Shown piece after piece: positions 2,578 to 58,888 of a stretch of DNA of 64,000 bases. The stretch is from an uncultured Maribacter sp. (lineage in GTDB: Bacteria > Bacteroidota > Bacteroidia > Flavobacteriales > Flavobacteriaceae), in contig NZ_CANMBB010000001.1 in NCBI RefSeq assembly GCF_947495965.1, positions 833,728-897,727 on the forward strand, written 5' to 3'. Under the pieces are notes generated by a model. That model was not told the DNA's origin. It was given only the letters and a program-made list of their open reading frames with translations, and did not search any database. The position numbers and the translations under genes are program-made. The first letter of the stretch is position 1. Each line of letters begins with the position of its first letter.

Positions 2578-3312
2578 ATGCTAAAAGCTGTAATTGTAGA
2601 CGATGAAATTAAAGCCTTACAAAGCTTATCTTGGGAGCTAACAAACTTTAGTAAAGAAATTAATGTAGTGGCTTCTTTTACCGATCCATTTAAAGCATTA
2701 AGTTATTTAGAAACAAACACTCCTGACTGTTTATTTTTAGATATAGAAATGCCAACCATGGATGGTTTTCAATTTATTCAAAAATTACAAAATAAAAACT
2801 TCCCTGTTGTAATTACTACCGCGTATAATCAATATGCAATAAAAGCTTTAAAAAATGAGGCTTTGGATTATTTACTAAAACCTATAGATACTGATGATTT
2901 AGAAGAAACAATTGTTAAAATAAAAAAATTTAATGCCAAAAACTTAACGGTAGATAAATTAGAAAAAATTCTTCTAAATTTTAATTCCTCTACAAATACT
3001 AAAAAAATTACTTTTAATACAGATGGCAAACTACTTTTCTTAGAAAGTAATGAAATTTTATATGCAGAATCTGACGGGAATTACAGCACCATTTTTTTAA
3101 CAGACGGTCAAAAAATAGTACTTACAAAAAAATTAAAAGAAGTTAATGAGTTACTACCCCCAGATACATTTTTTAGAATTCATAACTCCTACATTATTAA
3201 CCTAAATAAAATCAAAGAATTTTTAAAAACCGATGGGTATGTAATCTTAAATTCTAATCATAAAATACCTGTATCTAGACAAAAAAAATCTGATTTTCTA
3301 GATTTGTTATAA
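2578..3312 (+). CDS. LytTR-family response regulator
   Basis: This 244-residue cytoplasmic regulator has an N-terminal receiver domain (about 1-120) with the acidic pair at VDDE and the phospho-acceptor aspartate in CLFLDIEMP. The conserved lysine lies in LLKPIDTDD. A C-terminal LytTR DNA-binding domain follows (about 140-244), with ILYAESDGNY and FFRIHNSYIINLNKI. LytTR regulators bind direct repeats spaced by about two helical turns. It is followed after 20 bases by a membrane sensor kinase of the matching class, so the two form a two-component pair. The target genes are unknown. Confidence 0.93.
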   Translation: MLKAVIVDDEIKALQSLSWELTNFSKEINVVASFTDPFKALSYLETNTPDCLFLDIEMPTMDGFQFIQKLQNKNFPVVITTAYNQYAIKALKNEALDYLLKPIDTDDLEETIVKIKKFNAKNLTVDKLEKILLNFNSSTNTKKITFNTDGKLLFLESNEILYAESDGNYSTIFLTDGQKIVLTKKLKEVNELLPPDTFFRIHNSYIINLNKIKEFLKTDGYVILNSNHKIPVSRQKKSDFLDLL

Positions 3313-53610: not shown

Positions 53611-54822
53611 ATGATAGAAAAGAAGACTATTGCCTATGAAAAGGCTGTTCTAATAGGCGTAATTAATAGAGAACAGAACGAAGAAAAAGTAAAGGAATAT
53701 CTAGATGAACTAGAGTTTCTTACGTATACTGCTGGTGGCGAAGTATTAAAACGTTTTGTGCAAAAGATAGATGTACCAAATCCTAAAACACTAATAGGTA
53801 GTGGTAAAATGGAAGAGATAGAAAATTATGTAGAAACTAATAAAATAGGTTCCGTAATTTTTGATGATGAACTTACTCCTGGGCAACAAAGAAATATTGA
53901 AAAACAATTACGTTGCAAAATTCTAGATCGTACCAGCTTAATATTAGACATTTTTGCACAGCGCGCCCAAACTAGTTATGCTAGAACACAAGTAGAATTA
54001 GCGCAATATGAATATTTATTACCACGATTAACTGGCCTTTGGACGCACCTAGAAAGACAAAAAGGTGGTATTGGTATGCGTGGTCCTGGAGAAACAGAGA
54101 TAGAAACAGATAGGCGTATTGTTCGCGATCGTATAACCCTTCTTAAAAAGAAACTGTTAAAAATTGATAAGCAGATGGGAACTCAACGTGGTAACCGTGG
54201 TGCTTTAGTACGGGTAGCTTTAGTAGGGTATACCAATGTTGGAAAATCTACCTTAATGAATGTTATTAGTAAGAGCGATGTTTTTGCGGAAAACAAACTC
54301 TTTGCCACTTTAGATACCACCGTTCGTAAAGTAGTTATAGGCAATTTACCTTTTCTTTTAAGTGATACTGTTGGTTTTATTCGTAAACTACCAACACAAC
54401 TAGTAGAAAGCTTTAAAAGCACCTTAGATGAAGTCCGTGAGGCCGACTTACTATTACATGTAGTAGATATAAGCCATCCTAACTTTGAAGAGCATATAGA
54501 TTCTGTACATCAAATTTTATCTGAAATTAAAAGTGCCGATAAAAAAACCATAATGGTCTTTAATAAAATAGACCAATATGAACACCAAACAATTGATGAT
54601 GATGATTTAATTACAGAAAAGACATCTAAACACTTTACCATTAAAGAGTGGAAACAAACTTGGATGCAAAAAGTTGGGGATAGAGCGCTTTTTATATCTG
54701 CCCTAAATAAAGAAAACTTAGACGAGTTTAGAAAACGTGTGTATGATGAAGTTAGAGACATTCATGTTACCCGTTTCCCATACAACAACTTTTTATACCC
54801 AGAGCATTTAGATGAGTATTAA
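53611..54822 (+). CDS. hflX: GTPase HflX
   Basis: The 403-residue GTPase binds ribosomes, notably stalled or heat-damaged ones, and splits them. The N-terminal HflX domain has DELTPGQQRNIEKQL and GIGMRGPGETEIETDRR. The GTPase domain has GYTNVGKSTLMN (G1, about 207), DTVGFIRKLP (G3) and NKID (G4). A TTG-free ATG start and normal length fit the family. It is followed by an intrinsic terminator and then by the first small RNA copy. Confidence 0.97.
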   Translation: MIEKKTIAYEKAVLIGVINREQNEEKVKEYLDELEFLTYTAGGEVLKRFVQKIDVPNPKTLIGSGKMEEIENYVETNKIGSVIFDDELTPGQQRNIEKQLRCKILDRTSLILDIFAQRAQTSYARTQVELAQYEYLLPRLTGLWTHLERQKGGIGMRGPGETEIETDRRIVRDRITLLKKKLLKIDKQMGTQRGNRGALVRVALVGYTNVGKSTLMNVISKSDVFAENKLFATLDTTVRKVVIGNLPFLLSDTVGFIRKLPTQLVESFKSTLDEVREADLLLHVVDISHPNFEEHIDSVHQILSEIKSADKKTIMVFNKIDQYEHQTIDDDDLITEKTSKHFTIKEWKQTWMQKVGDRALFISALNKENLDEFRKRVYDEVRDIHVTRFPYNNFLYPEHLDEY

Positions 54823-54860
54823 AGATAAAGGATAGTGTTATCTTTTAGAATAGAACAACA

Positions 54861-54894
54861 AGATGTAATAGTAATATATTACATCTTTTTTTTG
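54861..54894 (+). terminator. Intrinsic terminator of hflX
   Basis: AGATGTAATA and TATTACATCT form a 10-bp stem around a 6-base loop, followed by eight T. It separates hflX from the small RNA promoter 90 bases on. Confidence 0.9.
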
Positions 54895-54947
54895 CCTGTA
54901 AAAGATAAAAAGTGTAGTTCATCGAAGAAAGAATACCACTCATATTT

Positions 54948-54978
54948 TTCACAACATTATAGTGCTACTTCACAACAT
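54948..54978 (+). promoter_or_regulatory. Tandem TTCACAACAT site upstream of RNA copy 1
   Basis: Two TTCACAACAT elements (54948-54957 and 54969-54978) are exactly 21 bases apart, which is two helical turns. They end just before the TTG of the promoter. The geometry is that of a LytTR-type dimer site, though the sequence matches the published LytTR consensus only partly. Confidence 0.65.
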
Positions 54979-54981
54979 AAA

Positions 54982-55014
54982 TTGTTCTAAATCTTACCTC
55001 TCGTAGTATCTTTG
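54982..55014 (+). promoter_or_regulatory. Consensus promoter of small RNA copy 1
   Basis: TTG (54982-54984) and TATCTTTG (55007-55014), separated by 22 bases, match the Bacteroidetes promoter. The start of transcription would be near 55020. The same pair is kept in copy 2. Confidence 0.8.
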
Positions 55015-55019
55015 AAGTG

Positions 55020-55235
55020 TAACTAAGATATAGTGTTTTCCCGATAGTTTTCGGGACCAAATAAACACCAGAACTTAACCCAAAATGTTAACGTGTCTTT
55101 TCCCCAAAATTAGATACCTAACCTAAAAAAATAGTACCGAAGTATATAAGCTCGATTATCGAGTAAAATCGGACCAAAATTTTACAGAATACCTACTTAC
55201 TAAAAAATTGGCCCTTTCCCAAAAGGGCTTTTTTT
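55020..55235 (+). ncRNA. Predicted small RNA, copy 1 (about 215 nt), family unknown
   Basis: The predicted transcript runs from the promoter to the terminator. It has a hairpin TCCCGA-TAGTTT-TCGGGA (55039-55056), then a single-stranded core, then CTCGA-TTA-TCGAG (55151-55163), which can be enclosed by CCGA/TCGG (55137-55140, 55169-55172). GGACCAAA occurs twice, after each hairpin. A 13-codon ORF (55085-55126, MLTCLFPKIRYLT) lies in the fully conserved core, without a clear ribosome-binding site. It could be a regulatory RNA or a tiny mRNA. The first hairpin resembles a palindrome often seen between genes in Flavobacteria. No Rfam family was recognised. Confidence 0.7.
55211..55235 (+). terminator. 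Intrinsic terminator of small RNA copy 1
   Basis: GCCCTTT and AAAGGGC form a 7-bp stem with a CCCA loop, followed by seven T. The stem and loop are unchanged in copy 2 (57644-57667). The next gene (minus strand) ends 3 bases beyond, so the hairpin may serve both directions. Confidence 0.92.
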
Positions 55236-55238
55236 ATT

Positions 55239-55526
55239 TTAGACACCTACAGAAGCAGTAGCTATATTTAATTCTTCATTCAAACAATACTTCCATTTTA
55301 CGAATAAATCTATACCACCAATTACATCGTGATTCTGAAATAAATCTCCAAGTTTTTTATCCTGTAAAAAAGTAAAATAAAAAGGTGCTTGTAGCCTCCA
55401 TGGCATTTTTTCAATAGGCATAATACTGGCAGAATTTGCCTTATAATAAAGATTGGAATTTTTGTCTAAATATAATTTTAAATCTAAATCATTTAAATTA
55501 TAAATCTCAAAAAACTCTGTACTCAT
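55239..55526 (-). CDS. Small protein of unknown function, 95 residues
   Basis: The protein begins MSTEFFEIYNLNDLDLKLYLD and is rich in aromatic and charged residues, with no signal peptide or membrane span. It ends FVKWKYCLNEELNIATASVGV. No family is recognised. It is the first of five small genes between the two RNA repeats and is convergent with RNA copy 1, ending 3 bases after its terminator. It could be an accessory cassette gene. Confidence 0.6.
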   Translation of the reverse strand: MSTEFFEIYNLNDLDLKLYLDKNSNLYYKANSASIMPIEKMPWRLQAPFYFTFLQDKKLGDLFQNHDVIGGIDLFVKWKYCLNEELNIATASVGV

Positions 55527-55745
55527 ACTCGGTGGTTTATGGATTATACTTATTATTTAGTATTTTTAAAAAGCACAACCAATCCATATCTATTATAAAT
55601 AATTTATTTTGCATGTTACCTATTTAAAAATCACCTTTTTATATCGGTGAAATTAAGATATGGATTATATAACAGATTGTGGCTTAAAATAATTTACTTA
55701 TCTTTTGTTTCTTATTAGTAAAAGTAACAAAAAATAGTTCACAGT

Positions 55746-55762
55746 AGTACATAAAAGTACAT
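55746..55762. promoter_or_regulatory. Possible operator: AGTACAT direct repeat, 10-base period
   Basis: AGTACAT occurs at 55746-55752 and 55756-55762, one helical turn apart, about 30 bases before the HTH gene. Each contains the palindrome GTAC. It could bind the product of the adjacent HTH gene. Confidence 0.35.
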
Positions 55763-55791
55763 TTTTTTGAAATAAAGTCCTACAATTATTT

Positions 55792-56220
55792 ATGAAAACT
55801 AACGAAATTATACACTTTTTACTTTCAGAGTTTCAGACTGATAAAGCAGGGCTTGCCACTATTTTAAATGTGCATAAATCAACTATAAGCAATATTAGTA
55901 AAGGCTACACCAAAAAAATATCTTCTAAACTAGCGCATAGCATTACTTTACTAAAGCCAGAAATAAATTACGAGTTTATAATTGGTAATAGTGATCAAAA
56001 ATATGTTACTGATAACCGTAAAAATGTATCCAGGCAGGTTTATCTAGATACAAAAGGGAAAAATAGAATTACAATAGAAGAAATAACTACGTTTATTGTA
56101 AATCATATTGAAGAATTTGAAAAAAATGAAATTTTTAAAATTTACAAAAACTCTCTTATTAATCAGGCTAAGGTAGAGTTATTACAAGAGCAACTGTTAC
56201 TTAAAAACTCTATGAAATAG
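55792..56220 (+). CDS. Small helix-turn-helix regulator
   Basis: The 142-residue protein has an XRE-like HTH in its first half (about 15-50: DKAGLATILNVHKSTISNISKGYT). A region of unknown type and a helical C-terminus (about 95-142) follow. No named family is recognised. It is the only plus-strand gene in the cassette and is tail-to-tail with the 102-residue gene, 3 bases apart. An AGTACAT repeat upstream may be its own operator. Confidence 0.65.
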   Translation: MKTNEIIHFLLSEFQTDKAGLATILNVHKSTISNISKGYTKKISSKLAHSITLLKPEINYEFIIGNSDQKYVTDNRKNVSRQVYLDTKGKNRITIEEITTFIVNHIEEFEKNEIFKIYKNSLINQAKVELLQEQLLLKNSMK

Positions 56221-56223
56221 CAG

Positions 56224-56532
56224 TTATATACCAGCTAAAACCTTAGTAATATCTTTCTCTGTTAGTTGGTCTAGACCTAAATCATGTAATAAGGTTAATA
56301 TCTTAAGATATTTAACACGCTTTTTTGCGGCTTCATTTTTAGCGTTTATTTCTTTTACTTTTTTATTGGTAAATAAGCTTTTTAGGTAGTCCTTTTCGCT
56401 ATCTCCTTCTTCATCTCTTGCATTAAATTTATCTATTATAGTACTAAGTATAATAATGGTTTCTTCCACAGATAAATCGCCAGTACTAAGTTGCTGGCGT
56501 ACTTCTTTAATTTGGTTAATTAAATCTTGCAT
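56224..56532 (-). CDS. Helical protein of unknown function, 102 residues
   Basis: The sequence is mostly helical and charged, beginning MQDLINQIKEVRQQLSTGDL and ending LTEKDITKVLAGI. It has no signal peptide, membrane span or metal motif, so it is probably cytoplasmic. It lies 9 bases downstream of the four-span membrane gene on the same strand and would be co-transcribed with it and the small lipoprotein gene. No family is recognised. Confidence 0.6.
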   Translation of the reverse strand: MQDLINQIKEVRQQLSTGDLSVEETIIILSTIIDKFNARDEEGDSEKDYLKSLFTNKKVKEINAKNEAAKKRVKYLKILTLLHDLGLDQLTEKDITKVLAGI

Positions 56533-56541
56533 AGTAGGGTT

Positions 56542-57042
56542 TTAATTTTCAGATATGGTTTTGGCTTTTAATATATGTAGAATCTCTTGTGTTTCATGCT
56601 GAAACTCTTCTTTAAGTTGTACCTGACATTTACGCCATTTAAATATATTCTTAATAAGCATTGTTAATACTATAAATAGAATACAAGATCCAATAGCAAA
56701 TACATGTAATAAAACATTATCAATTTTCATATCAGGTCTAAAAACCCAAATAATTTGAATCGTATAACAATAAATCGGTATAAGATAAGAAGAAGAATAT
56801 GGTTTTAAATGAAAGCCAATAATCATTATTAAAGGCACTAAAGATTGCATAAAAACCCAAATGAAGGTATGATAATCAGAAAAACCATATGTATTATCAC
56901 CTTCAATTTCAAGAAAAAGTAAAACCTTATCTAGATAAAGAAGTAACCCAGATAAGGCAATAAATAAAGACCCTATTACTCTATTAGTCACCTCCTTGGT
57001 CCCCAGCTCTTTCCATCGTTCTCCTGTCAATACTCTGCTCAT
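56542..57042 (-). CDS. Four-span membrane protein, unknown
   Basis: The 166-residue protein has about four membrane spans (near 24-42, 60-80, 85-105 and 112-132) and a basic helical C-terminal tail. The soluble N-terminus is MSRVLTGERWKELGTKEVTNR. No family is recognised. Its first 19 codons overlap the 3' end of the small lipoprotein gene in another frame, so translation is likely coupled. Confidence 0.65.
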   Translation of the reverse strand: MSRVLTGERWKELGTKEVTNRVIGSLFIALSGLLLYLDKVLLFLEIEGDNTYGFSDYHTFIWVFMQSLVPLIMIIGFHLKPYSSSYLIPIYCYTIQIIWVFRPDMKIDNVLLHVFAIGSCILFIVLTMLIKNIFKWRKCQVQLKEEFQHETQEILHILKAKTISEN

Positions 57043-57142
57043 ACAATGTTTCCGTTTCTGCGGTATCTGTATTGGTACAAGAACTTACAAAACCTACTAA
57101 AAATACTACCGCGATTACTGCTAAAAAAATTTTTGTTTTCAT
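56984..57142 (-). CDS. Small lipoprotein, 52 residues
   Basis: ATG at 57142 gives MKTKIFLAVIAVVFLVGFVSS followed by a cysteine (residue 22) in a lipobox-like context, then a short polar tail, TNTDTAETETLYEQSIDRR. This looks like a lipoprotein with a mature part of 31 residues. Its last 59 bases encode the start of the four-span protein in another frame. No function is recognised. It is first in a three-gene minus-strand unit. Confidence 0.6.
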   Translation of the reverse strand: MKTKIFLAVIAVVFLVGFVSSCTNTDTAETETLYEQSIDRRTMERAGDQGGD

Positions 57143-57380
57143 AATAACATGCTTTTAAATTATTTATGCATGTAAATTACAAAACCCCTTCAAAACTAAG
57201 AAATTAGCAGGTTATAATTTGTAGGATTTTCCCTCACATTTATGCTGTCTACCTGTTTAAGCCCTGATTAGATAAAAAAAAGATAAGTTCTCCATTATAA
57301 ACGATAAAAAACTAGAAATTATGACAGTCTTATATATTAAGGAAATGCAGTTCACCGAAGAAAGAATACCACTCGTATTT

Positions 57381-57411
57381 TTCACAACATTATAGGGCTA
57401 CTTCACAACAT
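57381..57411 (+). promoter_or_regulatory. Tandem TTCACAACAT site upstream of RNA copy 2
   Basis: The same pair as in copy 1, 21 bases apart and unchanged, while neighbouring bases differ. The unchanged spacing supports a real protein site. Confidence 0.65.
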
Positions 57412-57414
57412 AAA

Positions 57415-57447
57415 TTGTTCTAAATCTTATCTCTCATAGTATCTTTG
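57415..57447 (+). promoter_or_regulatory. Consensus promoter of small RNA copy 2
   Basis: TTG and TATCTTTG are 22 bases apart, as in copy 1. Two substitutions lie in the spacer and none in the boxes. Confidence 0.8.
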
Positions 57448-57452
57448 AAGTG

Positions 57453-57667
57453 TAATTAAGAAATAGTATTTTCCCGATAGTTGTCGGGACCAAATAAACA
57501 CCAGAACTTAACCCAAAATGTTAACGTGTCTTTTCCCCAAAATTAGATACCTAACCTAAAAAAATAGTACCGAAGTAAATATGCTCGATTATCGAGTAAA
57601 ATCGGACCCAAATTTTACAGAATACCTACTTACTAAAAAACTGGCCCTTTCCCAAAAGGGCTTTTTT
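57453..57667 (+). ncRNA. Predicted small RNA, copy 2 (about 215 nt), family unknown
   Basis: This is the second RNA of the pair, sharing the hairpins, the 60-nt identical core and the 13-codon ORF (57518-57559). Substitutions relative to copy 1 fall in the first hairpin's loop, in the internal loop around the second hairpin and in the 5' end. That is the pattern expected if the folded structure matters. The transcript would end 286 bases before the end of the convergent DUF3078 gene. Confidence 0.7.
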
Positions 57668-57706
57668 ATTTATAAAAACTAAACCTTACAACCATACTTT
57701 AACAGC

Positions 57707-57740
57707 TTTTACAACAAAAAATAATTGTTTTACAACAAAA
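57707..57740. promoter_or_regulatory. TTTTACAACAAAA direct repeat, 21-base period
   Basis: TTTTACAACAAAA occurs exactly at 57707-57719 and 57728-57740, 21 bases apart. The core ACAACA and the spacing match the sites upstream of the two RNA promoters. No clear promoter follows on either strand, so this may be a third, isolated binding site. Confidence 0.5.
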
Positions 57741-57901
57741 CTTTCTGAAGCATAAATATGCTTATTAGATTGTTTGGGTATTTATAAAGAAGCGTCCTAA
57801 ATAACAGCTTTACTTTTTTGATACTTAAGTTTAGCCTATTACTATAAACACTGTTATATTATTAAATGACTGTGTATAAAGCAAAGTCCTACTTAACAAA
57901 A

Positions 57902-57926
57902 AAAGCCCTCTTAAAAAGAGGGCTTT
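57902..57926 (-). terminator. Terminator of the DUF3078 gene
   Basis: AAAGCCCTCTT and AAGAGGGCTTT form an 11-bp stem with a three-base loop. A long T run follows on the minus strand. Confidence 0.9.
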
Positions 57927-57952
57927 CTATATATTATATAATACCGTATGTC

Positions 57953-58888
57953 TTAGAAAGCGTAGTTAAGACCAAATAACCAATACGATTGTGTTTTATT
58001 ATCAATAGAATCAAAAGTTGGTTGAGGATCCGTAGCTGCAACTTTACTAACAGCATTGTTTAAAGCCTCTTGTTTATTACCTCTTAAACCAAACTCAAAC
58101 CCTAAACCTATACCTTTCCATAAAGTATATCCAAAAGAGTTAATCCATGTCCAGTTAGATAGGTCACCACTCTTATAACTTTGAAATGTAGAAAAGTTAG
58201 TTTTAAAGTTTACTGCTCCTAATTGTCTTGTATAGTCTACTACAATTTTAGCTCCTAAAGAAGAATCAAAAACAGCATCGTTATCTGCAAACACAAAGTT
58301 ATAGTTTAATGGGTGTATAACCACTACCATATTTTCTATTGGTGTCCAAGTAGCACCAACACCTACATCTAAATAACCAGGATCATTAAAATTATTTAAA
58401 ATTGTAGTTCTATATTCTCCTAAAGCAGAAATTGCAAATTTATCGCTTAATTTACGACCATATAAAGAAGAAATTGTAAAAACATCTGTTGCCTCTTTAA
58501 AGCCATCTTGTTGATTTTCTGGTAAATTTTGATCATCTAACTTTACCCATCCAAGGTTGATATTTCCGTTATTTCTCCAGAAGAATTTTTCACGATCTAA
58601 GTTTGCAAATCCATTAACAGTAACTCCTATATTTCCAGAAGAGTTATCTGGTAAAGCTTGCGAATACCAGTTACTAAATCCAGATAAATTAGCTCCTATA
58701 GTTCCAAAAGCTCCTTTTTTCCATCCTGGAAAAGCGTCTATTTTCCCTTGTAAAGCATCTACTCTACCTTGGATAGCTGCAACTGAATCTTTCTTTAAAG
58801 CTTGTTCTGCCTTTAACTCATCAATCGTTTGGGCATAACTTGCAGATAATGCAAATACTGCTACCAAAGTAAAAACTAGTTTTTTCAT
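57953..58888 (-). CDS. DUF3078 outer-membrane protein
   Basis: The 311-residue protein has a signal peptide (cleavage after SASYAQ). A short coiled region (about 22-50) leads into a beta-rich part with GTIGANLSGFSNWYSQ, NLGWVKLDDQNLPENQ and YWLFGLNYAF at the C-terminus, ending in phenylalanine as outer-membrane barrels do. DUF3078 proteins are predicted outer-membrane beta proteins of unknown role in Bacteroidetes. A promoter box is seen on the minus strand upstream and a terminator downstream, so it is a one-gene unit. Confidence 0.88.
   Translation of the reverse strand: MKKLVFTLVAVFALSASYAQTIDELKAEQALKKDSVAAIQGRVDALQGKIDAFPGWKKGAFGTIGANLSGFSNWYSQALPDNSSGNIGVTVNGFANLDREKFFWRNNGNINLGWVKLDDQNLPENQQDGFKEATDVFTISSLYGRKLSDKFAISALGEYRTTILNNFNDPGYLDVGVGATWTPIENMVVVIHPLNYNFVFADNDAVFDSSLGAKIVVDYTRQLGAVNFKTNFSTFQSYKSGDLSNWTWINSFGYTLWKGIGLGFEFGLRGNKQEALNNAVSKVAATDPQPTFDSIDNKTQSYWLFGLNYAF

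Follow-up and report, generated by a model that had tools for sequence, protein, structure and literature searches.

Between the genes for the GTPase HflX and for a DUF3078 protein, the 64,000-nucleotide stretch of an uncultured Maribacter sp. genome analyzed here (contig NZ_CANMBB010000001.1; the window) carries three copies of a putative small structured RNA gene, two near-identical and one divergent, each behind a candidate operator for a LytTR response regulator. The upstream anchor, hflX (53611-54822, forward strand; Pfam GTP-bdg_N/M and MMR_HSR1), is syntenic in related loci, as is the downstream anchor, the DUF3078 gene (57953-58888, reverse strand; Pfam PF11276). A terminator belonging to hflX, placed ahead of the RNA units by an earlier note on this DNA, was read directly from the sequence at about 54860-54893 (forward strand) as an A+T-rich hairpin followed by T8; it is absent from the list given by a G+C-based scan. 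The two near-identical copies lie in direct blocks of about 322 bp (54913-55234 and 57346-57667) offset by 2433 bases. Re-counting returned the 14 substitutions and zero indels previously reported, and same-strand repeated 24-mers in the window are confined to this pair. The identical core, given earlier as 60 nt, is in fact 94 nt long (55051-55144), and the substitutions do not avoid the stems as had been claimed: the two 5' helices contain C/T at 55023 and G/A at 55035, either of which costs one copy a pair of the tested structure.

Both blocks hold the parts of a predicted transcription unit. Copy a of the RNA has predicted ends at 55019 and 55235 (forward strand; 212 bits with our RNA model, R1) and consists of a 5' compound hairpin (55023-55078), a CCCC-loop hairpin (55093-55117), a spacer hairpin (about 55137-55171) and a terminator (55210-55229). 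Its putative operator (54917-54977, forward strand) comprises GTTCATCGA at 54917, within which the substitution at 54922 lies, and TTCACAACA-N12-TTCACAACA with repeats at 54948-54956 and 54969-54977. The promoter box TATCTTTG, of the TAnnTTTG type, follows at 55007-55014 on the same strand and predicts a start near 55019 under the box-to-start rule as it appears in PMC9723704. Copy b (57452-57668, forward strand; R1 213 bits) repeats this arrangement, with an operator at 57350-57410 (GTTCACCGA, then TTCACAACA-N12-TTCACAACA at 57381 and 57402), the box TATCTTTG at 57440-57447, a predicted start near 57452 and a terminator at 57643-57662. The separate promoter and intrinsic terminator (a GC-rich hairpin, then a T run) that had been proposed for each copy were recovered at these positions. 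A scan of 54780-57960 for sigma-70-type promoters, a type that does not take in TAnnTTTG, stayed at chance level (18 found, 18.0 expected), and terminator-like sites in the same interval numbered seven against a shuffle mean of 0.9.

The divergent third copy and the upstream operators go beyond the earlier note. This copy, of a type that we call B, extends from about 57697 to 57932 on the forward strand; an operator-promoter model (R2) matched it at 57697-57795 (E 5.5e-7) and R1 matched it in part at 57884-57932 (E 0.003). Operator repeats at 57708 and 57729, a promoter-like TAGATTGT at 57766 and a terminator at 57902-57926 make up its predicted parts, and it can be aligned with type-B copies from six other genomes.

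The predicted fold of copy a was better than all 200 of 200 shuffled sequences (z -2.91). The structure tested is made up of two stems, UUAAG/CUUAA (outer) and GUGUUU/AAACAC (inner), the hairpin GUGUCU..CCCC..AGAUAC, the spacer hairpin and the terminator. When 17 copies were aligned with MAFFT, 93.7% of cells paired, and the covariation score was 0.083 against 0.058 for shuffled alignments (0/500) and at most 0.042 when the structure was slid; double-change pairs (4 against 2.3 shuffled, 63/500) and further pair types (56/500) were not significant. A larger set of 67 copies, taken from 40 loci at E ≤ 1e-6 and aligned to the model, scored 0.382, where shuffling gave 0.145 and sliding no more than 0.096, and 22 of the 29 pairs had changed on both sides (18.6 shuffled). 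Paired substitutions in the stems of homologues, which had been expected, were found in both alignments, and together with the copies and promoter boxes they support the proposal of a promoter-driven, structured and duplicated RNA. CCCC(AAA) occupies two hairpin loops in the majority of relatives and one in the window's copies. An inner 5' hairpin, CCCGAUAGUU(U/G)UCGGG, occurs in only four of the 17 aligned copies (the window's two and two of genome G002) and is absent from the first loop of the other 13, so that in the window's copies only the second hairpin has an open CCCC loop. Distant copies, for example at loci L082, L083 and L094, carry CCCC-loop hairpins on different stems, as read by eye. 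The single-stranded motifs ACUUAACC and CCUACUUAAC are conserved, and none of the 67 copies contains a long open reading frame (ORF) beginning with ATG, the median length being 2 aa and the greatest 25.

Neither the window nor any of 17 related loci gave an Rfam match at the gathering score, in line with the suggestion that the RNA lies outside known families; searched up to E 10, the interval 54900-57700 gave three matches, all far under the gathering score (best E 3.8) and none of them RNAIII. A literature search, whose coverage did not extend to most subscription journals and supplements, found no published account of the RNA.

To place the RNA in its family we used 397 Flavobacteriaceae genomes, 58 of which matched R1 at E ≤ 0.01. 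In 50 of these the whole model was matched, and these genomes belong to the Maribacter/Zobellia group; the remaining eight (G012, G036, G294, G351, G363, G366, G381 and G418) matched at the 3' end only. The window's own genome has the two near-identical copies and the divergent third. All eight genomes searched within the genus have the RNA, with one to three main-type copies each, and exact matches to the RNA 5' pattern came from genera including Maribacter, Zobellia, Pseudozobellia, Kriegella, Ulvibacterium, Euzebyella, Eudoraea and Aurantibacter. In a class-wide sample R2 was found at E ≤ 1e-4 in 3 of 395 genomes, the window's own included, all of the same family. The array adjoins hflX, the DUF3078 gene or both in 25 of the 26 genomes examined, G186 being the exception, and several genomes have extra copies elsewhere. 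A FastTree tree clustered the copies by genome in G004, G005, G007 and G039; copies b and c of G002 paired with each other, and its copy a grouped with the window's copies. In several genomes the copies are closer to each other than to those of relatives, the pattern that concerted evolution predicts. The tree omits a copy in G006 (L038, 4817-5168, minus strand) that is split just past its 5' end by a foreign stretch of about 170 bases. In G004 and G005 the copies stand in tandem with no cassette in between. The putative RNA gene is therefore best described as an old multicopy array.

The RNA is preceded by a long stretch of conserved DNA. The TTCACAACA pair could be scored (up to two mismatches per repeat, spacers of 6-20 tried) in 45 of 47 aligned copies, the other two being unscored, and the spacer was 12 bp in every one. 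The center of the pair precedes the predicted start by a median of 55 bases (range 49-56), and 29-31 bases ahead of the first repeat a TTCATCGA-like site begins. Repeats bound by LytTR regulators are mostly 12 bp apart, as PMC6193735 and PMC4064291 present them, and those of AgrA are centered near -60 according to PMC4227749; CCGTTCATC is given as an AlgR site in PMC4064291. The 9-12-9 direct repeat has the geometry of LytTR binding sites, 9-bp direct repeats spaced by about 12 bp and centered near -60, its own center lying at a median of -55 from the predicted start.

In the window's own genome the operator also occurs between two genes, one for a histidine kinase of 655 aa and the other for a LytTR response regulator, which places it at the locus of a matching regulator. 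Searched as a bare pattern with up to three mismatches, the operator gave 26 matches in this genome against 19 for the reversed control; the pattern being noisy, weight was put on close matches only. R2 lies beside one of the genome's nine LytTR genes, that of this regulator. Another LytTR domain gene, at 3028-3309 of the window, has no R2 site beside it. Across the family, orthologues of the regulator (E ≤ 1e-80) were found in 80 of 397 genomes; identity was 81-100% in 70 of them and as low as 59% among the others. R2 at E ≤ 2e-5 was present in 79 of the 80 genomes with the regulator and in 1 of the 317 without; the corresponding figures were 76/80 and 0/317 at E ≤ 1e-6, and 80/80 and 44/317 at E ≤ 0.01. 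Whole-length R1 matches followed the same division (50/80 against 0/317), and with partial matches included 53 of the 58 R1 genomes had the regulator. At E ≤ 0.01, 15 of 16 orthologous loci (eight from this genus) have R2 next to the regulator gene, against none of six distant LytTR genes, one of which has a match at E 0.094; for the bare pattern the counts were 14/16 and 0/6. R1 itself gave nothing under E 0.19 beside the gene of this LytTR regulator.

Some operators stand before other units. At L114 (1796-2563) one precedes genes for two small proteins, the first with a DUF6747 domain, and on the minus strand of L119, near 2464, one precedes a sigma-factor-like gene (by eye); these protein genes suggest a wider regulon. 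Elsewhere in the window's genome, L113 (minus strand, about 1485-1790; G000:C1:933.5-933.8 kb) holds an operator-driven short transcript-like unit in which an ACCCAAATC motif is accompanied by a terminator-like hairpin and, as judged by eye, a possible small ORF. Beside the regulator gene itself, six genomes (G001, G003, G039, G044, G018 and G033, at loci L128, L130, L132, L134, L136 and L137) have a second short RNA-like unit, read by eye, with a LytTR-type operator, a TTTTCATTTTCATATAGTGTTCTC that hardly varies and a terminator-like hairpin; L137 (G033) has a similar second unit as well.

The space between copies a and b is occupied by a cassette of five ORFs. These encode an orphan of 95 aa (55239-55526, reverse strand; nothing over the cut-off in Pfam, PADLOC or NCBIfam, homologues in G002 and G007), an orphan of 142 aa (55792-56220, forward) with a putative helix-turn-helix segment seen by eye, an orphan of 102 aa (56224-56532, reverse), probably a membrane protein of 166 aa (56542-57042, reverse; by eye) and a lipoprotein-like product of 52 aa (56984-57142, reverse; weak matches), whose gene is divergent from RNA copy b. 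The 142-aa ORF is present in five of the eight genus genomes, with one weak match (E 9e-4) among 149 genomes; a viral-contig search confirmed no relative, and its structure model was poor (predicted local distance difference test score, pLDDT, 47.7) and was not used. A known anti-phage system was considered for the cassette and dropped, as PADLOC returned no match. G002 and G007 have the same cassette between their RNA copies. Genes for 97, 153, 103 and 175 aa stand in the same order beside a queE-like gene (by eye) in G001 and G003; the 153- and 103-aa products share 67-69% identity with the window's, and the 97- and 175-aa genes were paired with the window's by eye only. At that locus R2 found no RNA up to E 0.1, and the best R1 match (E 0.026) was partial and about 6 kb away. 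This comparison does not support the view that the cassette belongs with the RNA: because the G001/G003 set stands elsewhere with no convincing RNA match, and other genera have other genes in this position, the five genes are passengers.

Inserts in other genera differ in content. Those of G195, G441, G186, G025 and G276 hold a long hybrid two-component protein (searched with Pfam in G441 and G025 only) and surface-protein-like genes, and that of G033 a response regulator and kinase (by eye). In nine genomes (these six, the window's, G002 and G007) the cassette gene before the next RNA copy is divergent from the RNA, as judged by eye. Inserts of more than 2 kb were found in 7 of 21 hflX-DUF3078 gaps and in 0 of 109 gaps at five neighboring positions of the same loci; the first of these shares is biased upward because the loci were hand-picked, partly for copies kilobases apart. 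The two origins offered earlier, duplication of the RNA gene or entry of a cassette by recombination at it, both proved partly right: the multicopy array is old, and the cassettes that have come between its copies differ from genus to genus. Where RNA copies stand 20-25 kb apart, in G452, G446 and G292, the genes between them look ordinary by eye. In G002 (L034, 860-3259), a TssD/Hcp gene and its neighbors, one of them of 366 aa without a Pfam match, lie between hflX and the first copy; a link to the type VI secretion system was set aside, since among the loci read Hcp/TssD stands beside the array in G002 only.

We think it somewhat probable that a LytTR two-component system drives redundant, trans-acting structured RNAs, between whose genes recombination has left cassettes. 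The RNA gene, of a predicted 140-220 nt and present once or several times between hflX and the DUF3078 gene, would be read in each copy from its own TAnnTTTG promoter. The response regulator would most likely activate it by binding TTCACAACA-N12-TTCACAACA about 55 bases before the start; still farther upstream is a second site, GTTCATCGA. The RNA, with its CCCC(AAA)-loop hairpins and intrinsic terminator end, would most likely act in trans by pairing, loop first, with G-rich stretches of mRNAs. Multiple copies would add dose, and homologous recombination would keep them alike while leaving different cassettes between them. The DNA itself shows the copies and their promoter boxes, the geometry of the operator, covariation in the stems, co-occurrence with the regulator and a cassette of passenger genes; transcription, regulator binding, recombination as the cause, trans action and base pairing are inferred.

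Several points weigh against this account. For the 67 copies the alignment had itself been fitted to the structure, and its helix 2 and helix 3 stems pair in only 76% and 80% of cells. RNAalifold, unaided, returned the terminator as the sole common structure; the first covariance model, built from that consensus, saw the terminator alone, and the explicit structure was tested afterwards. When 38 hand-picked model matches were folded without the terminator, the mean z-score was -1.85 and 18 fell below -1.64. Flavobacteria rarely use Shine-Dalgarno sequences, which weakens an anti-Shine-Dalgarno reading of the C-rich loops. The genomes of the co-occurrence test are not independent, since the co-occurrence lies within one related group, and its Fisher values ignore phylogeny. 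Of the 80 regulator genomes 30 have no whole-length R1 match, five of the eight partial-R1 genomes lack the regulator, and the 44 regulator-free genomes with R2 at the loosest cut-off count on the same side. Single genomes also depart from the pattern: no operator was detected beside the orthologue in G057 (L131), G407 (regulator identity 59%) reaches an R2 E-value of only 0.0013, and G067 has R2 at 1.4e-5 with no regulator at the cut-off.

The same repeated loops could instead belong to a sponge like CsrB or RsmZ, titrating an RNA-binding protein with a capacity raised by each added copy. The CCCC(AAA) loop on two hairpins in most aligned copies, the conserved single-stranded ACUUAACC and CCUACUUAAC and the several copies per genome would suit this, yet each RNA offers just two to three copies of the motif. 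Csr-type loops carry GGA, whereas the loop recurring here, read by eye, is CCCC(AAA) (GGA was not counted), and we consider a sponge improbable. Still less credence goes to RNAs without a trans role, in which the LytTR-controlled units would, for example, yield short leaders or serve as decoy promoters, titrating the regulator. Upstream DNA is indeed strongly conserved, R2, which is mostly upstream-based, matches more genomes than R1, and other operators in the genome precede protein genes; against this, the loops and stems of the RNA are themselves conserved with covariation, the terminator stem included.

Equally unlikely, in our view, is that the block is the end of a mobile unit, a site of cassette recombination with incidental RNA features. 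The excess of inserts in the hflX-DUF3078 gap and the position of cassettes between RNA copies are what such a site would give, but none of the window's five cassette ORFs has a Pfam match over the cut-off, to a transposase or integrase included, and the blocks are direct, not inverted (attC features were not searched). Cassette-free arrays and single copies exist, conservation of the promoter and hairpins is already seen in genomes without a cassette, and a similar cassette occurs elsewhere without the block; nor would a recombination site need covarying hairpins and a fixed operator spacing. A broader version of the LytTR circuit, which we offer tentatively and think rather unlikely, spans the Maribacter/Zobellia lineage: one highly conserved LytTR system would drive the paralogous C-loop RNAs of the hflX locus, the different short RNA beside the regulator, and itself, and the array would dock incoming cassettes, often with hybrid sensor kinases, the first gene being divergent from the operator of an RNA copy. 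If this were so, new sensors would be recruited into the regulon.

The sequence comparisons suggest an undescribed RNA-based signaling circuit in this bacterial group, and the hflX locus appears as a hotspot for cassette entry between RNA copies. A LytTR-RNA circuit in marine Bacteroidota, with its highly conserved regulator, several RNA paralogues and an operator code of its own, would offer a predicted global small RNA system with testable regulator, operator and RNA genes. LytTR-driven regulatory RNAs are known from Gram-positive bacteria (Agr, VirR). RNAIII has C-rich loops and a length of 514 nt, and the operator sequence of VirR differs from the TTCACAACA repeats. Redundant small RNA copies under one response regulator are found in Vibrio (Qrr) and Pseudomonas (RsmY/Z), with another regulator class and another loop motif. 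The AgrA-RNAIII system of Staphylococcus, as set out in PMC4227749, is alike in having a LytTR regulator on paired direct repeats near -60 and a regulatory RNA beside the regulator's own promoter; it differs in phylum and in having one RNA where several short copies occur here, and Rfam gives no match to RNAIII. In Clostridium perfringens a two-component LytTR regulator, VirR, likewise acts through a regulatory RNA, VR-RNA, in the account of PMC3673130; the array described here is multicopy and has no Rfam match to VR-RNA. Among flavobacterial small RNAs, the Rfp RNAs of Flavobacterium psychrophilum, including Rfp18, are in some cases predicted to be strongly structured, and one has a mutant phenotype (PMC9723704). 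The main text of that paper does not name hflX, and the RNA described here may still be one of the Rfp RNAs. 6S RNA, also considered, was rejected: 6S-Flavo (RF01685), a flavobacterial small RNA too, occupies a different locus in this genome, on another contig (G000:C8:155502-155611). On our best reading, the RNA would work like RNAIII and VR-RNA while being by sequence a member of neither family.

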